From positions 1 to 64,000 of the forward strand of contig NZ_PZJQ01000004.1 in NCBI RefSeq assembly GCF_003206065.1: 64,000 nt of DNA, in the 5' to 3' direction. Each line of letters opens with the position of its first letter. Position 1 is the stretch's first letter. Positions 5,234-16,187 of this stretch are shown piece after piece. Source of the DNA: Salinicola halimionae. GTDB taxonomy: Bacteria; Pseudomonadota; Gammaproteobacteria; Pseudomonadales; Halomonadaceae. The position numbers were made by a program, and so were the translations under genes. Below the pieces are notes generated by a model. It did no database searches. It saw only the letters and a list, made by a program, of their open reading frames with translations, and was not told the origin of the DNA.

Positions 5234-6493
5234 CTAGGGCAGGCGGTCGACGATGTGATCGACGATGACGGCAGCCAGTGTCGCTTTGGCTTGAACCGGA
5301 AGTTCGCGACGTGTCGTCTGATCGTGCTGTTTCCACAGTAGCGTGACGGCGTTGTCGTCACTGCCGAAACCGACACCTTCACGGGAGACATCGTTGGCGA
5401 CGATCAGGTCCAGGCGCTTGCGTTCGAGCTTGCTGCCGGCATGCGTCTCGAGATCCTGCGTCTCGGCGGCAAAGCCGACCGTGAACGGGCGGTCCGGACG
5501 CGCCGCGACCGTGGCAACGATATCCGGATTGCGCACCAGCTCGAGCGTCAGGCCGGCGTCGTCATCCGTTTTCTTCATTTTGTGCTCGCCAACCGATGCG
5601 GCACGGTAGTCCGCCACGGCAGCACAGCCGATGAACAGATCGCAAGGCAATTGGGATTCGACGGCGGCCAGCATTTCCGAGGCCGACGTCACATCGATTC
5701 GATTGACGCCGGGCGGCGTCGATAGCGTGACGGGGCCGCTCACCAAGCTGACGCTGGCACCGCGCTGGGCGCAGGCCGCGGCCAAGGCGTAGCCCATCTT
5801 GCCGGAGCTGTGATTGGAGAGATAGCGTACCGGGTCCAGCGCTTCGCGGGTCGGTCCGGCGGTAATGACCACGCGCTTGCCGTCCAGATCCTGATGCACG
5901 GGCATCATTTCGGATGACTCGCCGCGGGGGCGTTCGCGCTCGGCCAGCAGTTGGGTGAGAATCGTCTCCGGCTCGAGCATGCGGCCTAGACCGACGTCGC
6001 CACAGGCTTGATCGCCGGCGTCGGGACCCAACAGTGCCCAGCCCAGCTCACGCAGCCGATCGGCGTTGGCCAGCGTCGCCGGGTGGCGCCACATTGCCTG
6101 GTTCATCGCCGGTGCCATCAGACAGTGCGCCTCGGTGGCGAGACACAGCGTAGTCAACAGATCGTCGGCGTGGCCGTGGGCCAGTCGTGCCATCAGATCG
6201 GCGGTGGCCGGCGCGATCAGGATAATATCCGACCACTTGGCCAGCTCGATATGGCCCATGCCGGCCTCGGCCTCGGGATCCAGCAGCGAGGTGCGCACCG
6301 GCTCGCCGGTCAGCGCCTGCAGGGTCAGCGGGGTAATGAACGCCTGGGCGCCCTCGGTCATGACGACGCGCACCTCGGCACCCGTCTTTTTCAGCAGACG
6401 AGCGAGATGCGCGCTCTTGTAGGCGGCGATGCCGGCGCTGATGCCGAGCAGAATTCGGGTTCCGGCCAGCCCCGGGGCAAGCGGTAGCGACAT
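5234..6493 (-). CDS. coaBC: Phosphopantothenoylcysteine decarboxylase/synthetase
   Basis: A 419-residue bifunctional enzyme of coenzyme A synthesis. The N-terminal CoaC flavin domain (about 1-190) carries PAMNQAMW at 128-135 and the ACGDVG segment with the active cysteine near 164; it decarboxylates 4'-phosphopantothenoylcysteine. The C-terminal CoaB domain from about 205 (TAGPTREALDPVRYLSNHSS) joins cysteine to phosphopantothenate using CTP. I set the start at the ATG at 6493, which has AGGA upstream and gives the family N-terminus; the open frame runs further upstream but is not protein-like. In E. coli and Pseudomonas the divergent neighbour is radC; here an eight-gene operon intervenes. 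Confidence 0.95.
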   Translation of the reverse strand: MSLPLAPGLAGTRILLGISAGIAAYKSAHLARLLKKTGAEVRVVMTEGAQAFITPLTLQALTGEPVRTSLLDPEAEAGMGHIELAKWSDIILIAPATADLMARLAHGHADDLLTTLCLATEAHCLMAPAMNQAMWRHPATLANADRLRELGWALLGPDAGDQACGDVGLGRMLEPETILTQLLAERERPRGESSEMMPVHQDLDGKRVVITAGPTREALDPVRYLSNHSSGKMGYALAAACAQRGASVSLVSGPVTLSTPPGVNRIDVTSASEMLAAVESQLPCDLFIGCAAVADYRAASVGEHKMKKTDDDAGLTLELVRNPDIVATVAARPDRPFTVGFAAETQDLETHAGSKLERKRLDLIVANDVSREGVGFGSDDNAVTLLWKQHDQTTRRELPVQAKATLAAVIVDHIVDRLP

Positions 6494-6584: not shown

Positions 6585-7772
6585 CTAATCCCGCGGCAGC
6601 AGACGCTGGACGGCGAGCTCGACGCCACGCAGCTCGGCGAGCCCCTTGAGTCGACCGATCAACGGGTACCCGGGGCGGCTGTCGCGAGTCAGGTCGTCGA
6701 GCAGATGATGACCGTGATCCGGGCGCATCGGCAGTCGGTTGCCGTCTTCACGCTGGCGTCGGCGCTGTTCCTGAACCAGAGCGCCAATCACCCCGACCAT
6801 ATCGACGTCGCCATCCAGATGGTCGGCCTCGTGGAAACTGAGCGGGTTGGACTCACGCTGGGTGGCGCGCAGATGCACAAAATGAATATGCGGCGCGAAG
6901 CGCTTGGCCATGGCGACCAGGTCGTTGTCCTCGCGTACGCCGTAGGAGCCGGTGCAGAAGGTCAGGCCGTTGGCTGGGCTGGGTGCGCTATCGAGTACGT
7001 ACTGGGCATCTTCGGCGGTCGAGACCACGCGCGGCAGCCCCAGCAGTTCCCGGGGCGGGTCGTCCGGGTGAATCGCCAGGCGCACGCCCGCTTCCTCCGC
7101 CGTGGGCACGATGGCGCGCAGGAACGTGGTCAGATTGGCGCGCAGCCGTTCGGCATCGATCTCGCGGTAGGCGTCGAGCGCCTGGCGGAAATCTTCCAGC
7201 GTGTAGTGCTCTTCGGTGCCGGGCAGCCCGGCGATGACGGTGTCGACTAGCTGCGTTCGTGCCGCCGCGTCGAGTGTCTCCAGATAAGCGCTGGCCGCTT
7301 CCCGCTCGGTCTCGCTGTAATCGGTTGCTGCCCCTTCGCGCTCGAGCAGAAACAGATCGAAGGCGGCGAAGGCGGTCTGGTCGAAGCGCAGCGCGGTGCC
7401 GCCGTTGGGTAGCGGCCAGGCCAGATCGGTGCGAGTCCAGTCGAGGATCGGCATGAAGTTGTAGCAGACCACATCGATACCGCACTGGCCCAGATTGGCG
7501 AGCGTCTGGCGGTAGTTGTCGATGTAGCCCTGGGCTTCAGGCAGGCCCTGTTTGATCGCCTCGTGAATCGGCACGCTTTCGACCACCGACCAGGTCAGAC
7601 CGGCGGATTCGATCAGGCGTTTGCGCTCGGCGATCGCCTCGACCGGCCAGATGTCACCGTTGGGAATCTCGTGCAGGGCAGTGACGATGCCGGTGGCGCC
7701 GGCTTGGCGGATGTCATCGAGGGTGATGGGATCGGCCGGACCGAACCAGCGCCAGGTGTGTTCCATGATCAA
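6585..7772 (-). CDS. uxuA: D-mannonate dehydratase (UxuA)
   Basis: A 395-residue TIM-barrel enzyme that dehydrates D-mannonate to 2-keto-3-deoxy-D-gluconate. The N-terminus ([15 protein letters not shown]), the [14 protein letters not shown] segment and [15 protein letters not shown], which carries metal-binding residues, are characteristic. Length equals E. coli UxuA (394). The start overlaps the uxuB stop by four bases (ATGA), so the two are translationally coupled; an internal ATG two codons in is an equally normal start. It is the last gene of the operon. An unrelated enolase-superfamily ManD is encoded at the other end (13371-14582), so mannonate dehydration may be encoded twice. Confidence 0.94.
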
Positions 7773-9268
7773 GCATCCCGATCAGAAAAGTTGAGTGTCA
7801 GAGCGGTGGTAATTGTGGCTTCCACGCCATCGCGTTCCAGTCGCGTCAGCGCGTCGACGACTTGTTGGGCGAACTGCCGATCATCGCGTAGTGCCGCGGG
7901 AAAAACGGCATCAAGCCCGAGAAAGGCGTCGACCAGTGCGGGGCGGTCGCAGGCATGGCGACGATGCAGCGTGGCAAACGTCTCGGCCATGGGATCGTCG
8001 ACCGGGTGCAGTCGGCCGGACAGATTGCTACCCGCGGTATAGCGAATCCAGCCGGCCACGCCCAAGGCAGTGACGCTGACCTCGTCGCCGGCGGTCATCC
8101 GTTCGACACCGCCTGCCAGCCAGCGCTGGGGCAGCTTCTGCGAGCCGTCCATGGCGATCTGCTGCAGTCGGTGCTGGAGGCTATCGTTGCCGAAGCGCGC
8201 CAGCAGGCTCCCGGTGTAGACGTCGGCATCGGTGCCATCCGGCAGCGAAAGCGTAGGGATCGCTTCCCGCTGCCAGTAGTGCTGAAGAAGCTGGCGAAAA
8301 GCGGGGCGAGCGACGGCGGCATCGACCGTGTCGATACCGGCCAGGGCGCCGAGATAGGCCAGCAGCGAGTGGGCGCCGTTGAGCAGACGCAGCTTCATGG
8401 TTTCGAACGGCGCGACGTCGGCGACCATCTCGACGCCGTCGGCTTCCCAATCCGGCCGGCCCAGCGGGAAACGATCCTCGACCACCCACTGGCTGAAAGT
8501 TTCACAGACCACCGCGGCCGGGTCTTCCACACCCAGCGCCGCCAGGCGTTGGCGGTCGGCATCGGTCATGGCCGGCACGATGCGATCGACCATGCTCGAG
8601 GGGAAGGCAACCTCCGCCTCTATCCACTCGGCCAGCTCGGTATCGCGGTGACGCGCCAGCGAAATGACGGCGCGACGCGTGCGCTGACCGTTATGGGGCA
8701 TATTGTCGCAACAGAGCACGGTGAATGGCGCGATGCCTGCCGAGCGGCGTCGCGCCAGTGCTTCCACCAGTATGCCCGGCGCGGTGTCCGGTAATTCCGG
8801 ATGAGCGATATCGTGGGCGATCGGTGCAGCGTCGTGCAGCAGTTCACCGCTGCCAGGGTTCAGGAAATAACCTTTTTCGGTCACGGTGAGGGTGACGATG
8901 CGGACGCCGGGATCGCTCATGCGGGCCAGAAGCGCCTCGCGATCCGGCCCGTCCGACCCGGCATAGAGGGCTTCGCGAATGGCGCTGATCTCGCGCAGGG
9001 TGACGTGTTCGCTGTCACTGAACTCGACGACGTGATAGCGCAGATCCTGCTTGCGCAGTTGATCGACCAGCATGTGATTGGAGCGAATGTTGGCGCTGCA
9101 GATGCCCCATTCGTTCCCCTGCCCGGTGCGAGTGCGATTGATGCCTCGCTGCACGTAGACCGCCTGGTGGGCACGATGAAAGGCGCCGAGCCCGAGGTGG
9201 ACGATGCCGTTTTTGACCGGCGTGGTCTGGCTGGGTTCACGCTCGATATGGATGTCGTTTGGAGCCAT
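7769..9268 (-). CDS. uxuB: Fructuronate reductase (UxuB-like mannitol dehydrogenase family)
   Basis: A 499-residue member of the long-chain mannitol dehydrogenase family. The N-terminal dinucleotide site [10 protein letters not shown] lies at about 26-35, and the family signature [15 protein letters not shown] is in the middle. In this context the reaction is NADH-dependent reduction of D-fructuronate to D-mannonate, feeding UxuA just downstream. Length is near E. coli UxuB (486). The start lies four bases after the TRAP large-subunit stop. Mannitol or arabinitol dehydrogenase activity cannot be ruled out from sequence, but the operon partners favour mannonate. Confidence 0.9.
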
Positions 9269-9272
9269 TGCG

Positions 9273-10553
9273 CTATTTCCCCATCAGCAGGTTGGGCAGC
9301 CACAGCGACAGTGCCGGCACGAAGGACACCAACATCAGCACGATCAGGTTGCAGATCAGGAACGGGATGATGGCTTTGGCGACCCGAAGCATGGGTAGCT
9401 TGCCGATACTCGAGACCACGAACAGGCAGACACCCACCGGCGGTGTGGTCAGGCCAATCATCAGGTTGAGTACCGCCATCACGCCGAAGTGGATCGGATC
9501 CATGCCGATGCCGGTGGCCACGCCCAGCAGCGCCGGGAACAGGATGATCAACGCAGCGATCGTCTCCATGAAAGCGCCGACGAACAGCAGGATCAGATTG
9601 AGGATCAGAATGACCACGATCGGATTGGTGCTGATGCCGAGAATCGCATCGGCCAGCATCTGCGGAATCTGCTGGCTGGTCAGGATCCAGCCGAACAGGT
9701 TGGCCAGCCCGACCAATAGCATCAGCGATGCCGAGGTGATGACGGTATCGGACAGGATGCCACCCAGGTTTCGCCAGTTGATCCCCTTGTAGATGAAGGT
9801 GCCGACCAGCAAGGCGTAGAGACTGGCGACGATAGAAGCCTCGGTCGGCGTGAACAGGCCGCCGATGATGCCGTAGAGAATGATGAAGGTCATCAGCAGC
9901 GCCCAGAATGCGCTACGGCCTTCCTTGATCAGCTCTCTGAGCGTAGCGCGCTTCTCCTTCGGATAGCCTCGCCGCACGGCCAGCCAGTAGGCGGTTATCA
10001 TCATTGCCACGCCCAGCAGCAGGCCGGGCAGAGCGCCGGCCAGAAACATTCGACCCACGGAAATGCCCGAAAGCGAGCCGACGATGATCATCGGGACGCT
10101 GGGTGGAATGATCGGGCCTATGGTCGAGGAGGCAGCGGTCACGGCGGCGGCAAACGGCTTGTCGTAGCCGGCTTTTGCCATCCCGGGGATCATCACCGAG
10201 CCGATGCTGGCGGCGTCCGCCACGGCGGTGCCGGAGATACCGCTGAATATCATCGAGCCGCCGACGTTGGCCAGCCCCAGCCCGCCGCGGATATGCCCGA
10301 CCAGGGCATTGGAGAAGCGCACGATGTGCTGGGTGATGTTGCCCACGTTCATCAGATTGCCGGCCATCACGAAGCCGGGAATGCACAGCAGCACGAAGGA
10401 GTCGATGCCGGAGAACATTCGCTGCGGCACGATGGTCAACGAGATTCCGCCGAGCATCAGATAGGCCAGTGACGACACGCCGAGACAGAAGGCGATCGGC
10501 AGGCCGATCAACAGCAGTACCAGAAAGGTGACGAAGAGAACGGCGATTTCCAT
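9273..10553 (-). CDS. TRAP transporter large permease (DctM type)
   Basis: A 426-residue integral membrane protein with about 12 hydrophobic segments, the large subunit of a tripartite ATP-independent periplasmic transporter. Typical segments are GLPIAFCLGV near the start and IGPIIPPSVPMIIVG and LTTPPVGVCLFV in the permease core. It moves the ligand delivered by the binding protein across the inner membrane, driven by a sodium gradient, a natural choice for a halophile. Its ATG overlaps the small-subunit stop by one base. The genes on either side suggest an aldonate or hexuronate ligand; the permease itself does not reveal the substrate. Confidence 0.94.
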   Translation of the reverse strand: MEIAVLFVTFLVLLLIGLPIAFCLGVSSLAYLMLGGISLTIVPQRMFSGIDSFVLLCIPGFVMAGNLMNVGNITQHIVRFSNALVGHIRGGLGLANVGGSMIFSGISGTAVADAASIGSVMIPGMAKAGYDKPFAAAVTAASSTIGPIIPPSVPMIIVGSLSGISVGRMFLAGALPGLLLGVAMMITAYWLAVRRGYPKEKRATLRELIKEGRSAFWALLMTFIILYGIIGGLFTPTEASIVASLYALLVGTFIYKGINWRNLGGILSDTVITSASLMLLVGLANLFGWILTSQQIPQMLADAILGISTNPIVVILILNLILLFVGAFMETIAALIILFPALLGVATGIGMDPIHFGVMAVLNLMIGLTTPPVGVCLFVVSSIGKLPMLRVAKAIIPFLICNLIVLMLVSFVPALSLWLPNLLMGK

Positions 10554-11146
10554 CAGAGCGCCTCCTGGCGGGTGGTGTCGGCGCGCTCGCCACGAATCAT
10601 GGCGATGATCCCCTCGGCCAGCCCGATCAGGCTGTACAGCAACAGCGACCCGAACAGCACCACCGAAGAGAGGAAGATGTAGAGCATGGGAATGCGCAGC
10701 GTCGGCGATGTCTGGAACGCGCCGATCTGGGCGAATTGCCAGGCGTTAGGCAGCACCAGGATCGTGAAAATGAAGGTGATCGCCGAGATCAGTACCAGAT
10801 AGCCCGCTCGACCACGGAAACCGAGCCAACCATGAAACAGCTCGACGTTGACGTGCCGGTTACGGTGCTGCACCACGCCAGCGCCTAGCGCCACCATGTA
10901 AATGAAGAGATAGCGTGTGAGCTCTTCGGTCCACGAGAGCGTGATGGGCAGAAACAATCGCGAGGCGACCTGCAGCAGCACGGTCAGTGACAGCCCTATC
11001 AGGGCGATCACGGCCAACCACAGCAGAATGCGATCCAGCCCGTCAGCCAGGCGGCCGATGGGGCCGCCCAGGCGCGGAACACGGTTCAGGATCTCCAGGC
11101 TTTCCTGGATATCCTGCTGTTGAGTGTCCGTTTCTTGTTCCGACAT
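10553..11146 (-). CDS. TRAP transporter small permease (DctQ type)
   Basis: A 197-residue membrane protein with four hydrophobic segments and the DctQ signature WTEELTRYLFIYMVALGAG at about 77-95. It pairs with the large permease (one-base overlap downstream). Both termini are extended, hydrophilic and rich in Gln and Glu. The N-terminal region before the first membrane segment is longer than in many DctQ proteins, about 38 residues. The start at 11146 gives a sensible leader region; the binding-protein gene ends 59 bases upstream. Confidence 0.92.
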   Translation of the reverse strand: MSEQETDTQQQDIQESLEILNRVPRLGGPIGRLADGLDRILLWLAVIALIGLSLTVLLQVASRLFLPITLSWTEELTRYLFIYMVALGAGVVQHRNRHVNVELFHGWLGFRGRAGYLVLISAITFIFTILVLPNAWQFAQIGAFQTSPTLRIPMLYIFLSSVVLFGSLLLYSLIGLAEGIIAMIRGERADTTRQEAL

Positions 11147-11205
11147 GGCGATCTCCGAACGGGAAATGAGAAAGCCGGAAGCGTCTTGCCCCCGGCGTAC
11201 GGCGG

Positions 11206-12189
11206 TCAGAGACCCTGAATCTCGTCGTAGAGCTTGCGCTGATCATCGTCGAGCGAGTCGAGAACTGCCGGACGCGCTTTCTTGGCGAACGCTTCCTGAT
11301 CGACGTCGACGAACTGCATGCCCTTGTCCTTGAGTGCCTGTTCGAGACGCTTCTGGTCATCGACGAACAGACCTTCCTCGTAGGACTGCATCTCGCTGGC
11401 CGCGTCGCGCACCACGCTCTGCAGATCGTCCGGCATCGATTCTAGTTTCTGCTTACCGATTACCACGTAGATCCAGCTGCGCACGTGATCGGTCATGTCC
11501 ACGTACTGCTGGACTTCATTGAAGCTGGCGCTCTCGATCAGGCTGAGCGGATTTTCCTGAGCTTCGATGGTGTTCTGCTGCAGCGAGGTAAACACTTCGC
11601 TGAAAGCCATCGGGGTCGGGCGGGCGCCCAGCGCTTCCCAGGTATCGACGAACAGCGGCACGTTGGGCACGCGAATGCGCAGACCATCGAGATCGTCCGG
11701 CGTCTTGATCGGACGATTGGAGGTCAGCTCTCGCGGGCCACGCTCGAACCAGGCGATCGGCACCAGGCCGGTGCGCTCGGTGATCTGCTGTTCGATCTGC
11801 TCGCCGACGTCGCCTTCCACGGCCTTGCGCATGTGGTCCGCGTCACGGAACAGATAGGGCACTGCCATCATCGCGGCATTGGGTGCCCAGTTCTGCAGGC
11901 TCTCGCCGGTGATGGTCATGTCGGCGGTCCCCAACTGGATGCTGTTGATCACATCCATCTCGCTGCCGAGCTGCTCGTTGGGAAAGACCTGGACCTCGAT
12001 TTGGCCATCGGAGTTGGCTTCCACCAGCTCCTTGAACTTCAGCGCGGCCTTGTTCCATATGTTCTGCTCATTGGCCAGATGGCCGAATTTCAGGGTGTAG
12101 TCCGCGGCCATTACTGCCTGGCTTCCCAGCAGCGTGGCCCCTAGGGCGGCGCCGGCGAGCATGTGTTTGAGTGTGGTGGTCGTCAACAT
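11206..12189 (-). CDS. TRAP transporter solute-binding protein (DctP type)
   Basis: A 327-residue periplasmic binding protein. The signal peptide runs to about residue 28 (cleavage near AVMA), and the mature start DYTLKFGHLANEQN is typical. The ligand-anchoring arginine lies in the GLRIRVPN segment, where the family salt bridge to the substrate carboxylate is made. I chose the ATG at 12189 because AGGAG precedes it at the right distance and it yields the signal peptide. It captures an organic acid for the two permease genes just downstream. Operon context suggests an aldonate or uronate such as gulonate, mannonate or glucuronate. Family members with sugar-acid ligands are known in Chromohalobacter. 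Confidence 0.93.
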   Translation of the reverse strand: MLTTTTLKHMLAGAALGATLLGSQAVMAADYTLKFGHLANEQNIWNKAALKFKELVEANSDGQIEVQVFPNEQLGSEMDVINSIQLGTADMTITGESLQNWAPNAAMMAVPYLFRDADHMRKAVEGDVGEQIEQQITERTGLVPIAWFERGPRELTSNRPIKTPDDLDGLRIRVPNVPLFVDTWEALGARPTPMAFSEVFTSLQQNTIEAQENPLSLIESASFNEVQQYVDMTDHVRSWIYVVIGKQKLESMPDDLQSVVRDAASEMQSYEEGLFVDDQKRLEQALKDKGMQFVDVDQEAFAKKARPAVLDSLDDDQRKLYDEIQGL

Positions 12190-12289
12190 GGCGTGAGTCT
12201 CCTGTCGCGTGGGATACGCGTCGGTTTTGTTGTCCAAGTCAGTCCCGCTTCCGGTTTTTCCAGAATCAGGGACGGGCTTCACGGGGCGT

Positions 12290-13312
12290 TCAAGATGAAA
12301 TCTTTACCAGCACCTTGCGCGCCTGTTCCGGGTGGTTCTCGAGCAGATCGATGGCGCCGGGCATTTCGGCCAGAGCGATGCGATGGCTGATCAGCGCCTT
12401 GGGATCGAGACGACCGGCGGCGATGTGTTCGATCACCTCCGGGAATTTGCGATTGTTCAGACGCGAGCCGACCAGCGTCAGCTCCTTCTTGATCACTTCC
12501 AGTTGAATCAGATCGCTGGGGGTGGGGCTGAAACCGAGTAGTCCGATGCGCCCGGCGGGGCAGGCCATCCGCAGCATGGCTGGCAGCATCGCCGGTATGC
12601 AGGCGGCATCGGCGATCAGCGGGATGCCTTCACCATCGGTTGCGTTCAGCACGGCCTGCTCGAGATCCTCGCTGCGGCCATTGATGGTGTGGCCGGCGCC
12701 CAGTTCGCGGGCCGAGGCCAGACGTTCATCGAGGATATCAGTGACGGTGATCTCTTCGAGACCGATGGCGCGCGCCATCTGCAGCAAGGTCAGGCCGATG
12801 ACGCCGGCGCCGATGATCAGCAGACGATCGCCGGGCTGAGGTCCCATCCGCGACAGCACGTTGGCGGCGATGGAGTAGGGCTCGACCAGCGCGGCGGCAT
12901 CGAGATCGAGATCGTCGGGAAGTCGATGTGCGTTGCTCGCCGGCACGTTGACCTGCTCGGCGAAACCGCCGTTGCGGTGTACGCCGATCACCTGCATTGC
13001 GCTGCAGACGTTGGGACGACCGATGCGGCACGGGTAGCACCGGCCGCAGCTGACGACCGGGTCGATACACACGCGCTCGCCGACGCGAGCGGGGTCGACA
13101 CCGTCGCTCACGGCGCTGATCACGCCGGCGAACTCGTGACCGGTGATGCGCGGAAACCGGACGAAGGCATTGTCGCCGTGGATGATGTGCATGTCCGAGC
13201 CGCAAATGCCGGCGTAGGCCACATCGATCACGACTTCACCCGGCGCCGCCTGAGGCTCGGGCTGGTCGCCGACGGCGAACGCATGAGGGGCGCTGACTTC
13301 AAAGGCTTGCAT
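12290..13312 (-). CDS. Zinc-dependent dehydrogenase, RspB/L-gulonate 5-dehydrogenase-like
   Basis: A 340-residue medium-chain dehydrogenase. Catalytic zinc ligands are Cys37 (GICGSD) with His59-Glu60 (ITGHEF), and the structural zinc site has four cysteines at 89, 92, 95 and 103. The Rossmann motif GAGVIG lies near 166, and an aspartate at the end of the second strand (TVTD) points to NAD rather than NADP. It resembles RspB and LgoD (L-galactonate oxidoreductase). As I recall, RspB-like enzymes were shown to oxidise L-gulonate at C5 to D-fructuronate in Chromohalobacter. With uxuB and uxuA downstream, that reaction fits best: the NADH made here is spent by UxuB. L-galactonate or L-idonate remain possible substrates. 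Confidence 0.88.
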   Translation of the reverse strand: MQAFEVSAPHAFAVGDQPEPQAAPGEVVIDVAYAGICGSDMHIIHGDNAFVRFPRITGHEFAGVISAVSDGVDPARVGERVCIDPVVSCGRCYPCRIGRPNVCSAMQVIGVHRNGGFAEQVNVPASNAHRLPDDLDLDAAALVEPYSIAANVLSRMGPQPGDRLLIIGAGVIGLTLLQMARAIGLEEITVTDILDERLASARELGAGHTINGRSEDLEQAVLNATDGEGIPLIADAACIPAMLPAMLRMACPAGRIGLLGFSPTPSDLIQLEVIKKELTLVGSRLNNRKFPEVIEHIAAGRLDPKALISHRIALAEMPGAIDLLENHPEQARKVLVKISS

Positions 13313-13370
13313 CGATGACTCTCCCGAAATTATCGCAATCGCCGTATGGCTGGATCACCAGTGCGGTCGT

Positions 13371-14582
13371 CTACCAATGCCACAGCGTGCCGTCATCGAG
13401 CCGGTTGACCGGCAGGCTGGCGCGCTTGAACGGATAGCGAGCGGCGGCTTCCTCATCGATATCGACGCCGTGTCCCGGCGATTCGCCAACCAGGAAATGG
13501 CCATCCTCGAAGCGATAGTCATGGGGGAAGACGCTGTCGGTCAGCTCATCGTGCGGCATGTGCTCCTGAATGCCGAAGTTGGGCACCCACGTATCGAAGT
13601 GGATTGCGGCGCCAAGACATACCGGCGACAGGTCGGTGGGGCCATGGAAGCCGGTGCGCACGTGATAGAGCGAGGCCAGATCGGCGATCCGACGCAGTTG
13701 TGTGATGCCGCCGCCGTGGGTCAGCGGCGTACGGATGTAGTCGATCCACTGGTTCTGGATCATCTCGCGGCAGTCGTGGATCGAGTTGAACACTTCGCCG
13801 ATGGCGAGCGGCGTGGTGGTGTGCTCGCGAATCAGACGCAGGCTTTCCTGGTTCTCGGCGGGGACGCAGTCCTCCAGCCAGAACAGGTGGTAAGGCTCCA
13901 CCGCCTTGCCCAGACGCGCCGCTTCGATCGGTGTCAGACGGTGGTGGACGTCGTGCAGCAGGTGCAGATCGTGACCGAAGCGCTCGCGCACCGCGGCGAA
14001 CAGCTGCGGCGCGTGGTTGAGGTACTTTTCCGTGCTCCAGACGTGCTCGGCGGGAAGCTCGGAGTCCGCCGGCTCATAGCGCTCGCCTTCACGTTTGGCG
14101 ACGCCGTAGATCGTTTTGATACCCGGGACGCCAGCCTGCACGCGAACCGCCTTGTAGCCGAGTTCGACGTGCCGGGCGACTTCCTCCAGACAGCTGTCGA
14201 TATCCTTGCCGGTGCAGTGGGCGTAGGTCATCACACGCTCACGGCTCTTGCCGCCCAAAAGCTGATAGAGCGGCATGTTGGCGGCCTTGGCCTTGATGTC
14301 CCACAGGGCCATGTCGACGGCGCCGATCGCACTCATGGTGACCGGGCCGCGACGCCAGTAAGCGCCGCGATAGAGATACTGCCAGGTGTCCTCGATGCGG
14401 CTGGCATCGCGACCGATCAGCGCCGGCGCGACATGCTCTTCAAGATAGGCGGCCACGGCCATTTCGCGGCCATTGAGCGTGGCGTCGCCGATGCCGTAGG
14501 TACCGGATTCGGTGATCAGTTTGAGCGTGACGAAGTTGCGTCCGGGGCTTGTGACGATGACGCGGGCGTCGATGATTTTCAT
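13371..14582 (-). CDS. manD: ManD-type mannonate/gluconate dehydratase (enolase superfamily)
   Basis: A 403-residue enolase-superfamily protein matching the ManD (RspA) subgroup end to end, from [18 protein letters not shown] to the closing tryptophan of LWHW. Metal and catalytic segments are visible: [29 protein letters not shown] and [11 protein letters not shown]. The efficient members dehydrate D-mannonate to 2-keto-3-deoxygluconate; others act weakly on D-mannonate or D-gluconate and are thought to have another or an accessory role. It is unrelated in fold subclass and sequence to UxuA at the far end of the operon. Gene order gntR-manD-rspB-like recalls the rspAB pair of E. coli. Confidence 0.9.
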
Positions 14583-14611
14583 GGACTCTCCGGCTTGAGG
14601 AAAAGGCGGTT

Positions 14612-15316
14612 TCAGTGGTTGTCGAACAGATCGGGAAAACGTTCGATCAGTCGCGGCAGCGAAATGAGCAGCTCGCGCAGATGCGTCTGCACGGCATGTT
14701 CGGCAGCGCTCGGATCGCGATTCTTGATGGCTTCGACGATGCGGGCGTGCTGCTCGACCAGGGTTTCCAGCGGGGTGCCATCGGGTACGCTGATGTAACG
14801 CACGCGATCGAAATGCGCCTTGACCTCTTCAGTAAATCGCCAGGCCGATTCATGACCGGCTTCTCGGGACAGCGTCTGGTGGAACTCCTCGTCGAGGACA
14901 TAGAAGCGGTCGTAATCCCCCCCGCCGATCGTCCTGCGCTGGCGCTCGACCAGTTCGAAGAGATCGTCGAGCCCGCGTGACGACAGACCTTCTTCCGCTG
15001 CGGACTTGGCTACCGCCACCTCGATCGCCTCGCGCACGAAGCGCGCGCTGTAGACCGCCTGGGGTGAAATCTTGACCACGAAGGTGCCGCGCTGAGGGCG
15101 GACTTCGACCAGCCCTGCCTCAGAAAGTCGGATGAAAGCCTCGCGGACGGGCTGACGACTCACATCGAAGGTGTCGGCGATCTCTTTCTCCGACAGGGCC
15201 TGCCCCGGGGCCAGCACCAGCCGAATGATGGCGTGGCGCAGCACGTCATAGAGACGCTGGCGCACATGGCCGGCATCCGAGGTGGTCCAGAGGCTTTGTA
15301 GGGTGGTCGTGGTCAC
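14612..15316 (-). CDS. GntR-family regulator with FCD domain
   Basis: A 234-residue FadR-subfamily regulator. The winged helix-turn-helix at about 42-62 ([20 protein letters not shown]) is followed by an all-helical FCD ligand domain whose metal-site residues are visible (LDEEFH, and histidines in EQHARIV and QTHLREL). These regulators usually repress a catabolic operon until a sugar acid binds. The start is GTG at 15316 with CTGGAG upstream. It is the first gene of the leftward sugar-acid operon, 29 bases before manD. Two identical TCTTGTCTGAC sites upstream are probable binding sites, so it likely controls itself and the operon. Confidence 0.92.
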
Positions 15317-15330
15317 TAGGGCTCCAGAAT

Positions 15331-15367
15331 TCTTGTCTGACCGGCTCGCTTTATGGTCTTGTCTGAC
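15331..15367 (-). promoter_or_regulatory. Paired GntR-type operator candidate before the sugar-acid operon
   Basis: The 11-base sequence TCTTGTCTGAC occurs at 15331-15341 and again at 15357-15367, a 26-base spacing. Read leftward it is GTCAGACAAGA. The TTGTC/GACAA half-site is typical of FCD-type GntR regulators. Both copies lie between the gntR start and radC, with a TA-rich TACTAG element between the distal copy and radC, so a repressor bound here would block the leftward operon. This is inference from motif form and position. Confidence 0.55.
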
Positions 15368-15512
15368 TAGTATGGTAGTGATTTGCCGGAAATTGGCGAT
15401 TCAACTTTGGGGGTAGATGCGTGCCATCCCCGAAAACCGTTCACAGGTTTTGAGAGACGCGGCCGATGTCCTGAGTCAGGGGTTCAAGACACGACGGGTG
15501 AACGGGAGGGGC

Positions 15513-16187
15513 ATGGGAATACGCGATTGGCCGGAGGGAGAGCGGCCGCGGGAAAAGCTGATGACGCTGGGGTCCTCGGCGCTGTCGGATGCCGAGCTGC
15601 TGGCGATCTTTCTGCGCGTCGGCGTCAAGGGGCGCTCGGCAGTGGATCTGGCGCGGGACCTGCTGAGCGCTTTCGGCGGACTGCGCCCGCTGCTGGAGGC
15701 AGATCGGCGACGATTCTGCGCCGAGCACGGACTGGGGGAGGCGACCTACGTTCAGCTGCAGGCGACGCTCGAGCTATCGCGCCGCCATCTGGGCAGCCTG
15801 CTCGAGCGTGACGCGGCGCTGACGTCGCCTGCGTTGGTGCGGCAGTTCTTGAGCGCTCAGATGCGTCACCTCGATCACGAAGCGTTCGCGGCCCTGTTTC
15901 TGGACACTCAGCATCGCGTGATCCGATTCGAGATCCTGTCCGAAGGCACGTTGGACAGCGCTTCCGTCTACCCGCGCGAGGTCGCTCGGAGAGCATTGGC
16001 GCGCAATGCCGGCGCCGTCATCTTCGCGCACAATCACCCCTCCGGCGTCGCCGAGCCGAGCGATGCCGACCGACGAATCACCGAACGCCTGCGCGAGGCG
16101 CTGGCCCTGTTCGACATCCGCGTGCTCGATCATTTCGTGATCGGTGACGGCGAAGTGATCTCTTTCGCCGAACGCGGGTGGTTGTAG
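15513..16187 (+). CDS. radC: RadC-family JAB/MPN protein
   Basis: A 224-residue RadC protein: an N-terminal helix-hairpin-helix-like region ([14 protein letters not shown]) and a C-terminal JAB1/MPN metalloprotease-like domain with HNHPSG at 173-178 and the following Asp185. Its role is uncertain. It was first linked to repair after radiation, but that phenotype was later attributed to recG. The start at 15513 follows a GGGAGG and gives the standard [16 protein letters not shown] beginning; the frame continues upstream without protein-like sequence. Normally it is divergent from coaBC directly. It is followed by rpmB as in E. coli. Confidence 0.92.

Follow-up and report, generated by a model that had tools for sequence, protein, structure and literature searches.

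A predicted L-gulonate and D-mannonate operon with two unrelated D-mannonate dehydratases in Salinicola halimionae

We analyzed a 64,000-nucleotide stretch of DNA (the window) from the 3.99-Mb genome of Salinicola halimionae, a member of the Halomonadaceae, and focused on eight genes on the minus strand at positions 6585 to 15316. They run leftward in the order gntR, manD, rspB-like gulD, dctP, dctQ, dctM, uxuB and uxuA, with coaBC and radC as flanks; this order and placement, proposed in a first-pass annotation, were confirmed by the open reading frames and by Pfam and NCBIfam matches. The genes very probably form a locally controlled operon through which L-gulonate and D-mannonate are used and which is the Salinicola counterpart of the operon type described in Chromohalobacter salexigens. 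In the pathway we propose, the tripartite ATP-independent periplasmic (TRAP) transporter DctPQM, here called TRAP1, would bring the sugar acid in, GulD would oxidize L-gulonate at C5 to D-fructuronate, and UxuB would reduce the latter to D-mannonate, so that the redox cofactor would be balanced over the two steps. UxuA, with ManD alongside, would then dehydrate D-mannonate to 2-keto-3-deoxygluconate (KDG); imported D-mannonate would join at this dehydration step, and KDG would be finished by a kinase and an aldolase encoded outside the operon. GntR would control the operon, most likely only this one, through a site at 15367-15379, from which it would presumably be released by an intermediate. 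For this strain, we infer the enzyme activities, the transporter ligand, the regulator effector and the share of the flux that passes through ManD.

The gene assignments were compared with a survey of 121 genomes of the same family, searched for UxuA, ManD, RadC, CoaBC and the uronate isomerase UxaC, and with a wider ManD comparison made of the best 80 loci; ManD presence counts refer to matches over the model cut-off. A first set of sequences and the 80 neighbourhoods overlap (at least 11 of 17 family loci), and their counts are not additive. The manD product (13371..14582), an enolase-superfamily D-mannonate dehydratase, scored 737.8 bits with NF043051 (cut-off 550) and was 89.1% identical to the solved chain 3ow1; its nearest named relatives were found in S. 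socius (98%), S. peritrichatus (96%) and S. avicenniae (95%). The uxuA gene (6585..7766), with an ATG at 7766 where the open reading frame tool placed a TTG at 7772, encodes a UxuA-family D-mannonate dehydratase (TIGR00695, 572.6 bits, cut-off 199.55) whose closest solved chain is 4eac, and it was the single match in a genome-wide UxuA search. Four short patterns, whose His, Cys, His and Asp residues we take to be the metal site, were all present in 73 of 77 UxuA sequences, including that of the window, and the other four missed one each. Pfam places UxuA and ManD in separate families (UxuA and MR_MLE), in line with their earlier description as unrelated enzymes.

The gulD gene (12290..13312) encodes an rspB-like zinc dehydrogenase, predicted to be an L-gulonate 5-dehydrogenase by its match to PRK10083 (388 bits, cut-off 376); its closest solved chain is 4ilk, named RspB, and the window shows the three zinc-site patterns, as do 47 of 52 sequences. 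For uxuB (7769..9268), the predicted fructuronate reductase (D-mannonate oxidoreductase) gene, both Pfam mannitol-dehydrogenase domains passed their cut-offs, PRK15037 was the best of 13 models, and the pattern K.R.LN..H was present in 68 of 68 sequences. The transporter is made up of the solute-binding protein gene dctP (11206..12189; TIGR00787, 249 bits, cut-off 175.05), which we start at the ATG at 12189 and not at 12282 as given by the open reading frame tool, the small permease gene dctQ (10553..11146; Pfam DctQ, 84.4 bits, cut-off 28.3) and the large permease gene dctM (9273..10553; TIGR00786, 426.5 bits, cut-off 268.45). Some search queries carried a dctP start two codons early, a coaBC one codon short or a radC start six codons early, and the matches are not expected to change. 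The spacing had been described as tiny gaps or overlaps, which is roughly right: dctM and dctQ overlap by 1 base and gaps of 4, 29, 58 and 59 bases were found elsewhere, but about 100 bases lie between gulD and dctP with its ATG at 12189. All eight genes were found together in 49 of the 79 other neighbourhoods, indicating that the grouping goes beyond chance.

The operon contains no uronate isomerase, KDG kinase or aldolase, as had been noted; calling it complete was an overstatement, since the KDG kinase and the 2-keto-3-deoxy-6-phosphogluconate (KDPG) aldolase would be encoded elsewhere. An Eda-type KDPG aldolase was detected at C6:295250 and a second aldolase match at C7:610594. Seven PfkB matches were present in the genome, and the three that were scanned, C4:855883, C6:298804 and C6:1269347, all fell below the cut-offs of their best models, a bifunctional kinase of KDG and 2-keto-3-deoxygalactonate (166.1 bits, cut-off 400), a fructokinase and a ribokinase, respectively.

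Local control is suggested by the first gene of the operon, gntR (14612..15316, GTG start), whose product is a FadR-type regulator with Pfam GntR and FCD domains. Conserved upstream of gntR is the 13-base site ACTACCATACTAG (15367..15379, minus strand), with the outer dyad CTA..AT..TAG, and we read this as a candidate GntR operator. The 12-base core CTACCATACTAG was found upstream of gntR without change in 18 of the 19 first-set sequences and with one base off in the remaining one. A gntR with more than 55% identity was present in 57 of the 80 neighbourhoods, and all 57 matched CT[AG]CCATACTAG, while the other 23 showed neither the gene nor the pattern. When 15 genomes of the same genus were searched for the 13-base site with at most one mismatch, 16 matches were obtained, and 14 of these, in 14 genomes, were directly upstream of a gntR; two sites with one mismatch (in genomes G055 and G122) had no gntR, manD or radC match alongside. 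The only genome of the 15 with no match, G120, also lacked UxuA and a ManD over cut-off. At this stringency, the genome of the window has one match, that at 15367-15379, and the operon is probably a one-operon regulon of its GntR. A wider regulon that includes uronate isomerase or KDG genes was unsupported for near-exact sites, of which there is this one genome-wide, and weaker sites were not searched genome-wide. A promoter scan at the operon start gave no sigma-70-like site. Just before gntR, an 11-base direct repeat was observed at 15331-15341 and 15357-15367, 26 bases apart, and in the alignment the window carries 26 extra bases beside the operator-like site that are absent from three Salinicola loci (L002-L004).

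Several observations weigh against the proposed operon function. The uxuB product scored 442.4 bits, short of the PRK15037 cut-off of 603; it is UxuB-like by gene order and best match, and no formal member of that model. The best KDG kinase candidate, C4:855883, was below its cut-off, and this makes the assignment a guess. The link with C. salexigens through 3ow1 holds only if this chain is the ManD of that organism. A reversed-pattern control of the operator was commoner than the operator itself, as the 15 genomes gave 36 matches to it, 3 of them in the genome of the window, and 19 of 100 shuffles of the window contained an operator match at no more than two mismatches; it is thus the position and the conservation of the site, and not its rarity or count, that speak for an operator. 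Finally, the sentence of PMC5507952 on the C. salexigens locus does not state that both dehydratases are there, and the passages in question give no list of its enzymes.

Regarding the substrate, entry as L-gulonate, as first suggested, is retained, and D-mannonate is probably also imported directly, judging from the relatives. In the survey, gulD was found in 52 of 67 ManD loci (the manD of genome G102 lies outside the tabulated stretch). For the 15 ManD genomes with a gulD-less operon, the best gulD match at E <= 1e-40 was only 36% identical. Three of these 15 have UxaC; the other 12 do not, yet they keep TRAP1, manD, uxuB and uxuA. With no known source of D-fructuronate and the transporter retained in these 12 operons, import of D-mannonate as such is suggested. 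The same data could be taken further, to say that D-mannonate is the main natural substrate and GulD a side entry for L-gulonate. The gulD-less operons and the lack of a closer gulD in their genomes point in that direction, and so does the same-genus genome G112 (locus L178), where a 332-base gap between manD and dctP holds short gulD-like fragments and the rest of the operon genes are present. The closest solved chains to DctP, 4pc9 and 4pcd (identity at 166 of 294 positions), are also in line with this, as we take them to be complexes with D-mannonate and L-galactonate. Against it, gulD is retained in most ManD loci, including those of 12 of the 13 same-genus carriers, and its median ratio of nonsynonymous to synonymous substitution rates (dN/dS) in the genus was 0.13. 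We regard this alternative as rather unlikely and keep L-gulonate together with D-mannonate as the substrates.

The dehydrogenase might instead act on L-idonate or L-galactonate, as the first-pass annotation had allowed. GulD shares a superfamily with L-idonate 5-dehydrogenase (PRK09880 match); nothing else was found in favor, apart from the ligand of a distant binding protein, 4pcd, presumably an L-galactonate complex. The L-idonate 5-dehydrogenase model gave 136.5 bits with a cut-off of 469, whereas PRK10083 gave 388 with a cut-off of 376, and the passages of PMC5507952 on these pathways assign L-galactonate in Halomonas and C. salexigens to separate loci with other enzymes. This alternative is thus quite improbable.

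An operon for D-glucuronate is more improbable still. Relatives show that the operon is able to carry a glucuronate module, made of a second TRAP system (TRAP2) and uxaC, with a gntR of this type on one side and manD on the other. However, UxaC gave no match in the whole genome of the window, TRAP2 is absent from the operon, and UxaC was found in just 13 of the 121 family genomes. With UxaC absent and the lone operator match belonging to this operon, the earlier argument against glucuronate holds here, and the isomerase route was rejected; non-isomerase routes, such as one through uronate dehydrogenase, were not searched for. A uronate isomerase in the same regulon, named beforehand as evidence that would tell against L-gulonate, is found in some relatives, as uxaC is directly upstream of manD and behind the same type of gntR in 9 of the 13 UxaC-bearing genomes, but not in this one.

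The relatives offer several forms of this module. Between gntR and manD, Billgrantia antri (L011) carries a second TRAP system together with a glucuronate isomerase gene, and S. peritrichatus (L004) carries the second TRAP system and no uxaC in that stretch. Mapped on the ManD tree, the TRAP2/uxaC label required 8 changes, indicating a cassette that comes and goes. Other arrangements were also observed. Genome G091 (L111, L166) has a split operon, with gntR-TRAP2-uxaC-manD-uxuB in one place and a second gntR plus uxuA between radC and coaBC about 220 kb off, and one operator-like site at each place. In genome G102 (L113, L119), the operon is rearranged: it has two genes resembling gntR as well as both TRAP1 and TRAP2, and about 14 kb separate uxaC from manD. 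G035 and G060 (L131, L128) carry a third TRAP set between uxuB and uxuA, 36-53% identical to TRAP2. G015 (L181) and eight other genomes of code genus g15 have a gulD-less operon for which neither a matching gntR nor the operator was found. At L181, the gene divergent from manD encodes another GntR, with a Uxu regulator as the best model (below cut-off), and close by is a gene for a KDG kinase that passes its curated cut-off. Strains with these natural variants, gulD-less or with a glucuronate module, are available for comparison, and regulation can be approached through the conserved operator-like site.

The presence of two dehydratases raises the question of what ManD does beside UxuA; this was untreated in the titles or abstract starts among the literature matches listed, and a search joining Salinicola and mannonate found nothing. 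In the survey, UxuA was found in 77 of 121 genomes and ManD in 68; every one of the 68 ManD genomes has UxuA, and all 13 UxaC genomes have ManD. The two genes were on the same strand and no more than 20 kb apart in 65 of the 68. UxuA occurred alone in 9 genomes, six of them from one genus, and the nine genera that contain UxuA include 24 genomes with neither gene, suggesting that UxuA and ManD come and go together. These presence and absence counts are not independent events. ManD is also highly conserved: it was closer to the copy of the window than UxuA in all 63 loci that have both, and closer than UxuB in 66 of 66. DctM was the only operon protein sometimes more similar to the window copy than ManD, which was nonetheless higher in 50 of 63 loci. 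Eleven positions, which we take to be catalytic or metal-binding, were invariant in 67 of 67 ManD sequences. The median dN/dS in the genus, estimated with our own script by the Nei-Gojobori method from pairs that are not independent, was 0.049 for manD, the lowest of ten genes (78 pairs, 13 sequences). The other values were 0.070 for dctM, 0.074 for radC (71 usable pairs), 0.116 for dctP, 0.123 for gntR, 0.130 for gulD (12 sequences), 0.147 for uxuA, 0.155 for coaBC (10 sequences), 0.224 for dctQ and 0.225 for uxuB. The slow evolution of ManD may be partly due to its fold.

Gulonate operons, glucuronate operons and operons lacking gulD all have ManD alongside UxuA; the enzyme is retained with L-gulonate, with glucuronate and, probably, with D-mannonate as the starting acid. 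This retention across the three kinds of operon suggests that it is bound to the shared uxuB-uxuA core and is under strong selection. We tentatively propose that ManD is no spare copy of UxuA but a partner under selection, with a function of its own in every active uxuB-uxuA operon of this kind. ManD is a Mg enzyme and UxuA an Fe/Mn enzyme, and ManD could, for instance, sustain the flow of D-mannonate when UxuA is metal-starved or damaged by oxidants, remove a side product, or act on another sugar acid of the pathway. ManD could also be a useless leftover, for example from a lost glucuronate module, next to whose uxaC it still stands in the 9 of 13 genomes mentioned above; such ManDs are said, in work from 2014, to show low in-vitro efficiency on D-mannonate, and their slow evolution could reflect the fold and not a need. 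The invariant presumed active-site positions, the lowest dN/dS of the ten genes (0.049, against 0.147 for UxuA) and the presence of ManD in 68 of 121 genomes, 55 of them without UxaC, make such a relic unlikely.

A sequence marker bears on the same subject. At the HG[P/A]xD position, where Ala reportedly goes with high and Pro with low efficiency on D-mannonate, the window has Pro, as do 63 of the 67 family ManDs, and 4 have Ala. Among the 80 wider loci, a gulD-like gene was near 40 of 46 Pro-type and 2 of 34 Ala-type genes (Fisher p 6e-14, uncorrected for kinship). No such separation by the marker is seen inside the family, where gulD accompanies 50 of 63 Pro-type and 2 of 4 Ala-type genes. 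A testable question is why manD, whose product is held to dehydrate D-mannonate poorly, evolves more slowly than any other gene of the operon and, in this family, never occurs without uxuA.

The operon lies between coaBC (5234..6493, minus strand, ATG at 6493; Pfam Flavoprotein and DFP) and radC (15513..16187, plus strand; Pfam RadC and UPF0758_N), whose likely ATG is at 15513, whereas the open reading frame tool lets the gene begin at 15417. A comparison of this interval across the family had been suggested, and was carried out between the Pfam domains in the 121 genomes; values were obtained for all but 14, some of these perhaps owing to contig breaks. The interval was below 2.3 kb in 66 genomes, 2.3-8 kb in 17, 8-40 kb in 21 and above 40 kb in 3. 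ManD is present in each of the 21 intervals of 8-40 kb, and one of the 17 intervals of 2.3-8 kb holds uxuA. Thirteen of the 14 same-genus genomes have the operon, adjacent to radC in all 13; in the fourteenth, G120, the coaBC and radC markers are 1.8 kb apart. In all, 24 of 67 ManD loci are linked to radC, including those of G095, G112 and G038, which were added from the neighbourhood table. Linkage to radC required 3 changes on the ManD tree, whose resolution is poor (of 64 inner branches, 14 are starred and 30 open). The operon at this site looks like an insertion common to Salinicola, code genus g2 and part of g19, with no general hotspot; a hotspot for many kinds of insert was unsupported, as every interval of 8-40 kb has ManD. 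Plasmid-borne transfer was considered as well, and of the 74 plasmid records with a match none covered 80% of the operon, the best reaching 13%.

Taken as an operon, this is a further, ordinary example of a type already described, in which Salinicola has its own version of a sugar-acid pathway known from the literature; its value is in what the comparison shows about ManD, about the operator-like site and about operons without gulD. Genome G075 of code genus g2 has the same operon order at the same coaBC-radC site and a ManD 99.3% identical to 3ow1; with 3ow1 taken to be the C. salexigens ManD, g2 is probably Chromohalobacter. With the DctP of the window, 4pc9 gave 369 bits, and 4pbq, which we take to be the binding protein of Haemophilus influenzae, gave 141.5. 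In enterobacterial loci of the rspAB type, manD/rspA is followed in most cases by an rspB-like gene, as here, and the encoded protein is 42-47% identical to GulD; no uxuA match was found in the stretches examined. Among described systems, passages of PMC5507952 present such a locus as the characterized L-gulonate pathway of C. salexigens (Wichelecki et al., 2014), and predict L-gulonate loci of Halomonas HL-48 and HL-93 as its conserved version. Like the window operon, the C. salexigens locus combines catabolic enzymes, a TRAP transporter and a GntR regulator, and from what PMC5507952 tells of it, the difference is one of sequence divergence only (ManD 89.1% identical to 3ow1). The L-gulonate pathway itself has been demonstrated in relatives or distant species, and the route first proposed for the window, from L-gulonate through D-fructuronate and D-mannonate to KDG, matches a published one. 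In H. influenzae, the sections of PMC5788505 on this pathway report enzyme assays, gulD and gulP knockouts and labelling for that route, and a rise of the pathway genes on L-gulonate or D-mannonate. That system, GulPQM-GulD-UxuB-UxuA-KdgK-KdgA, shares the chemical route and the enzyme types with the window operon; as described there, its five pathway enzymes include no ManD and, unlike in the window operon, its kinase and aldolase genes are co-localized.

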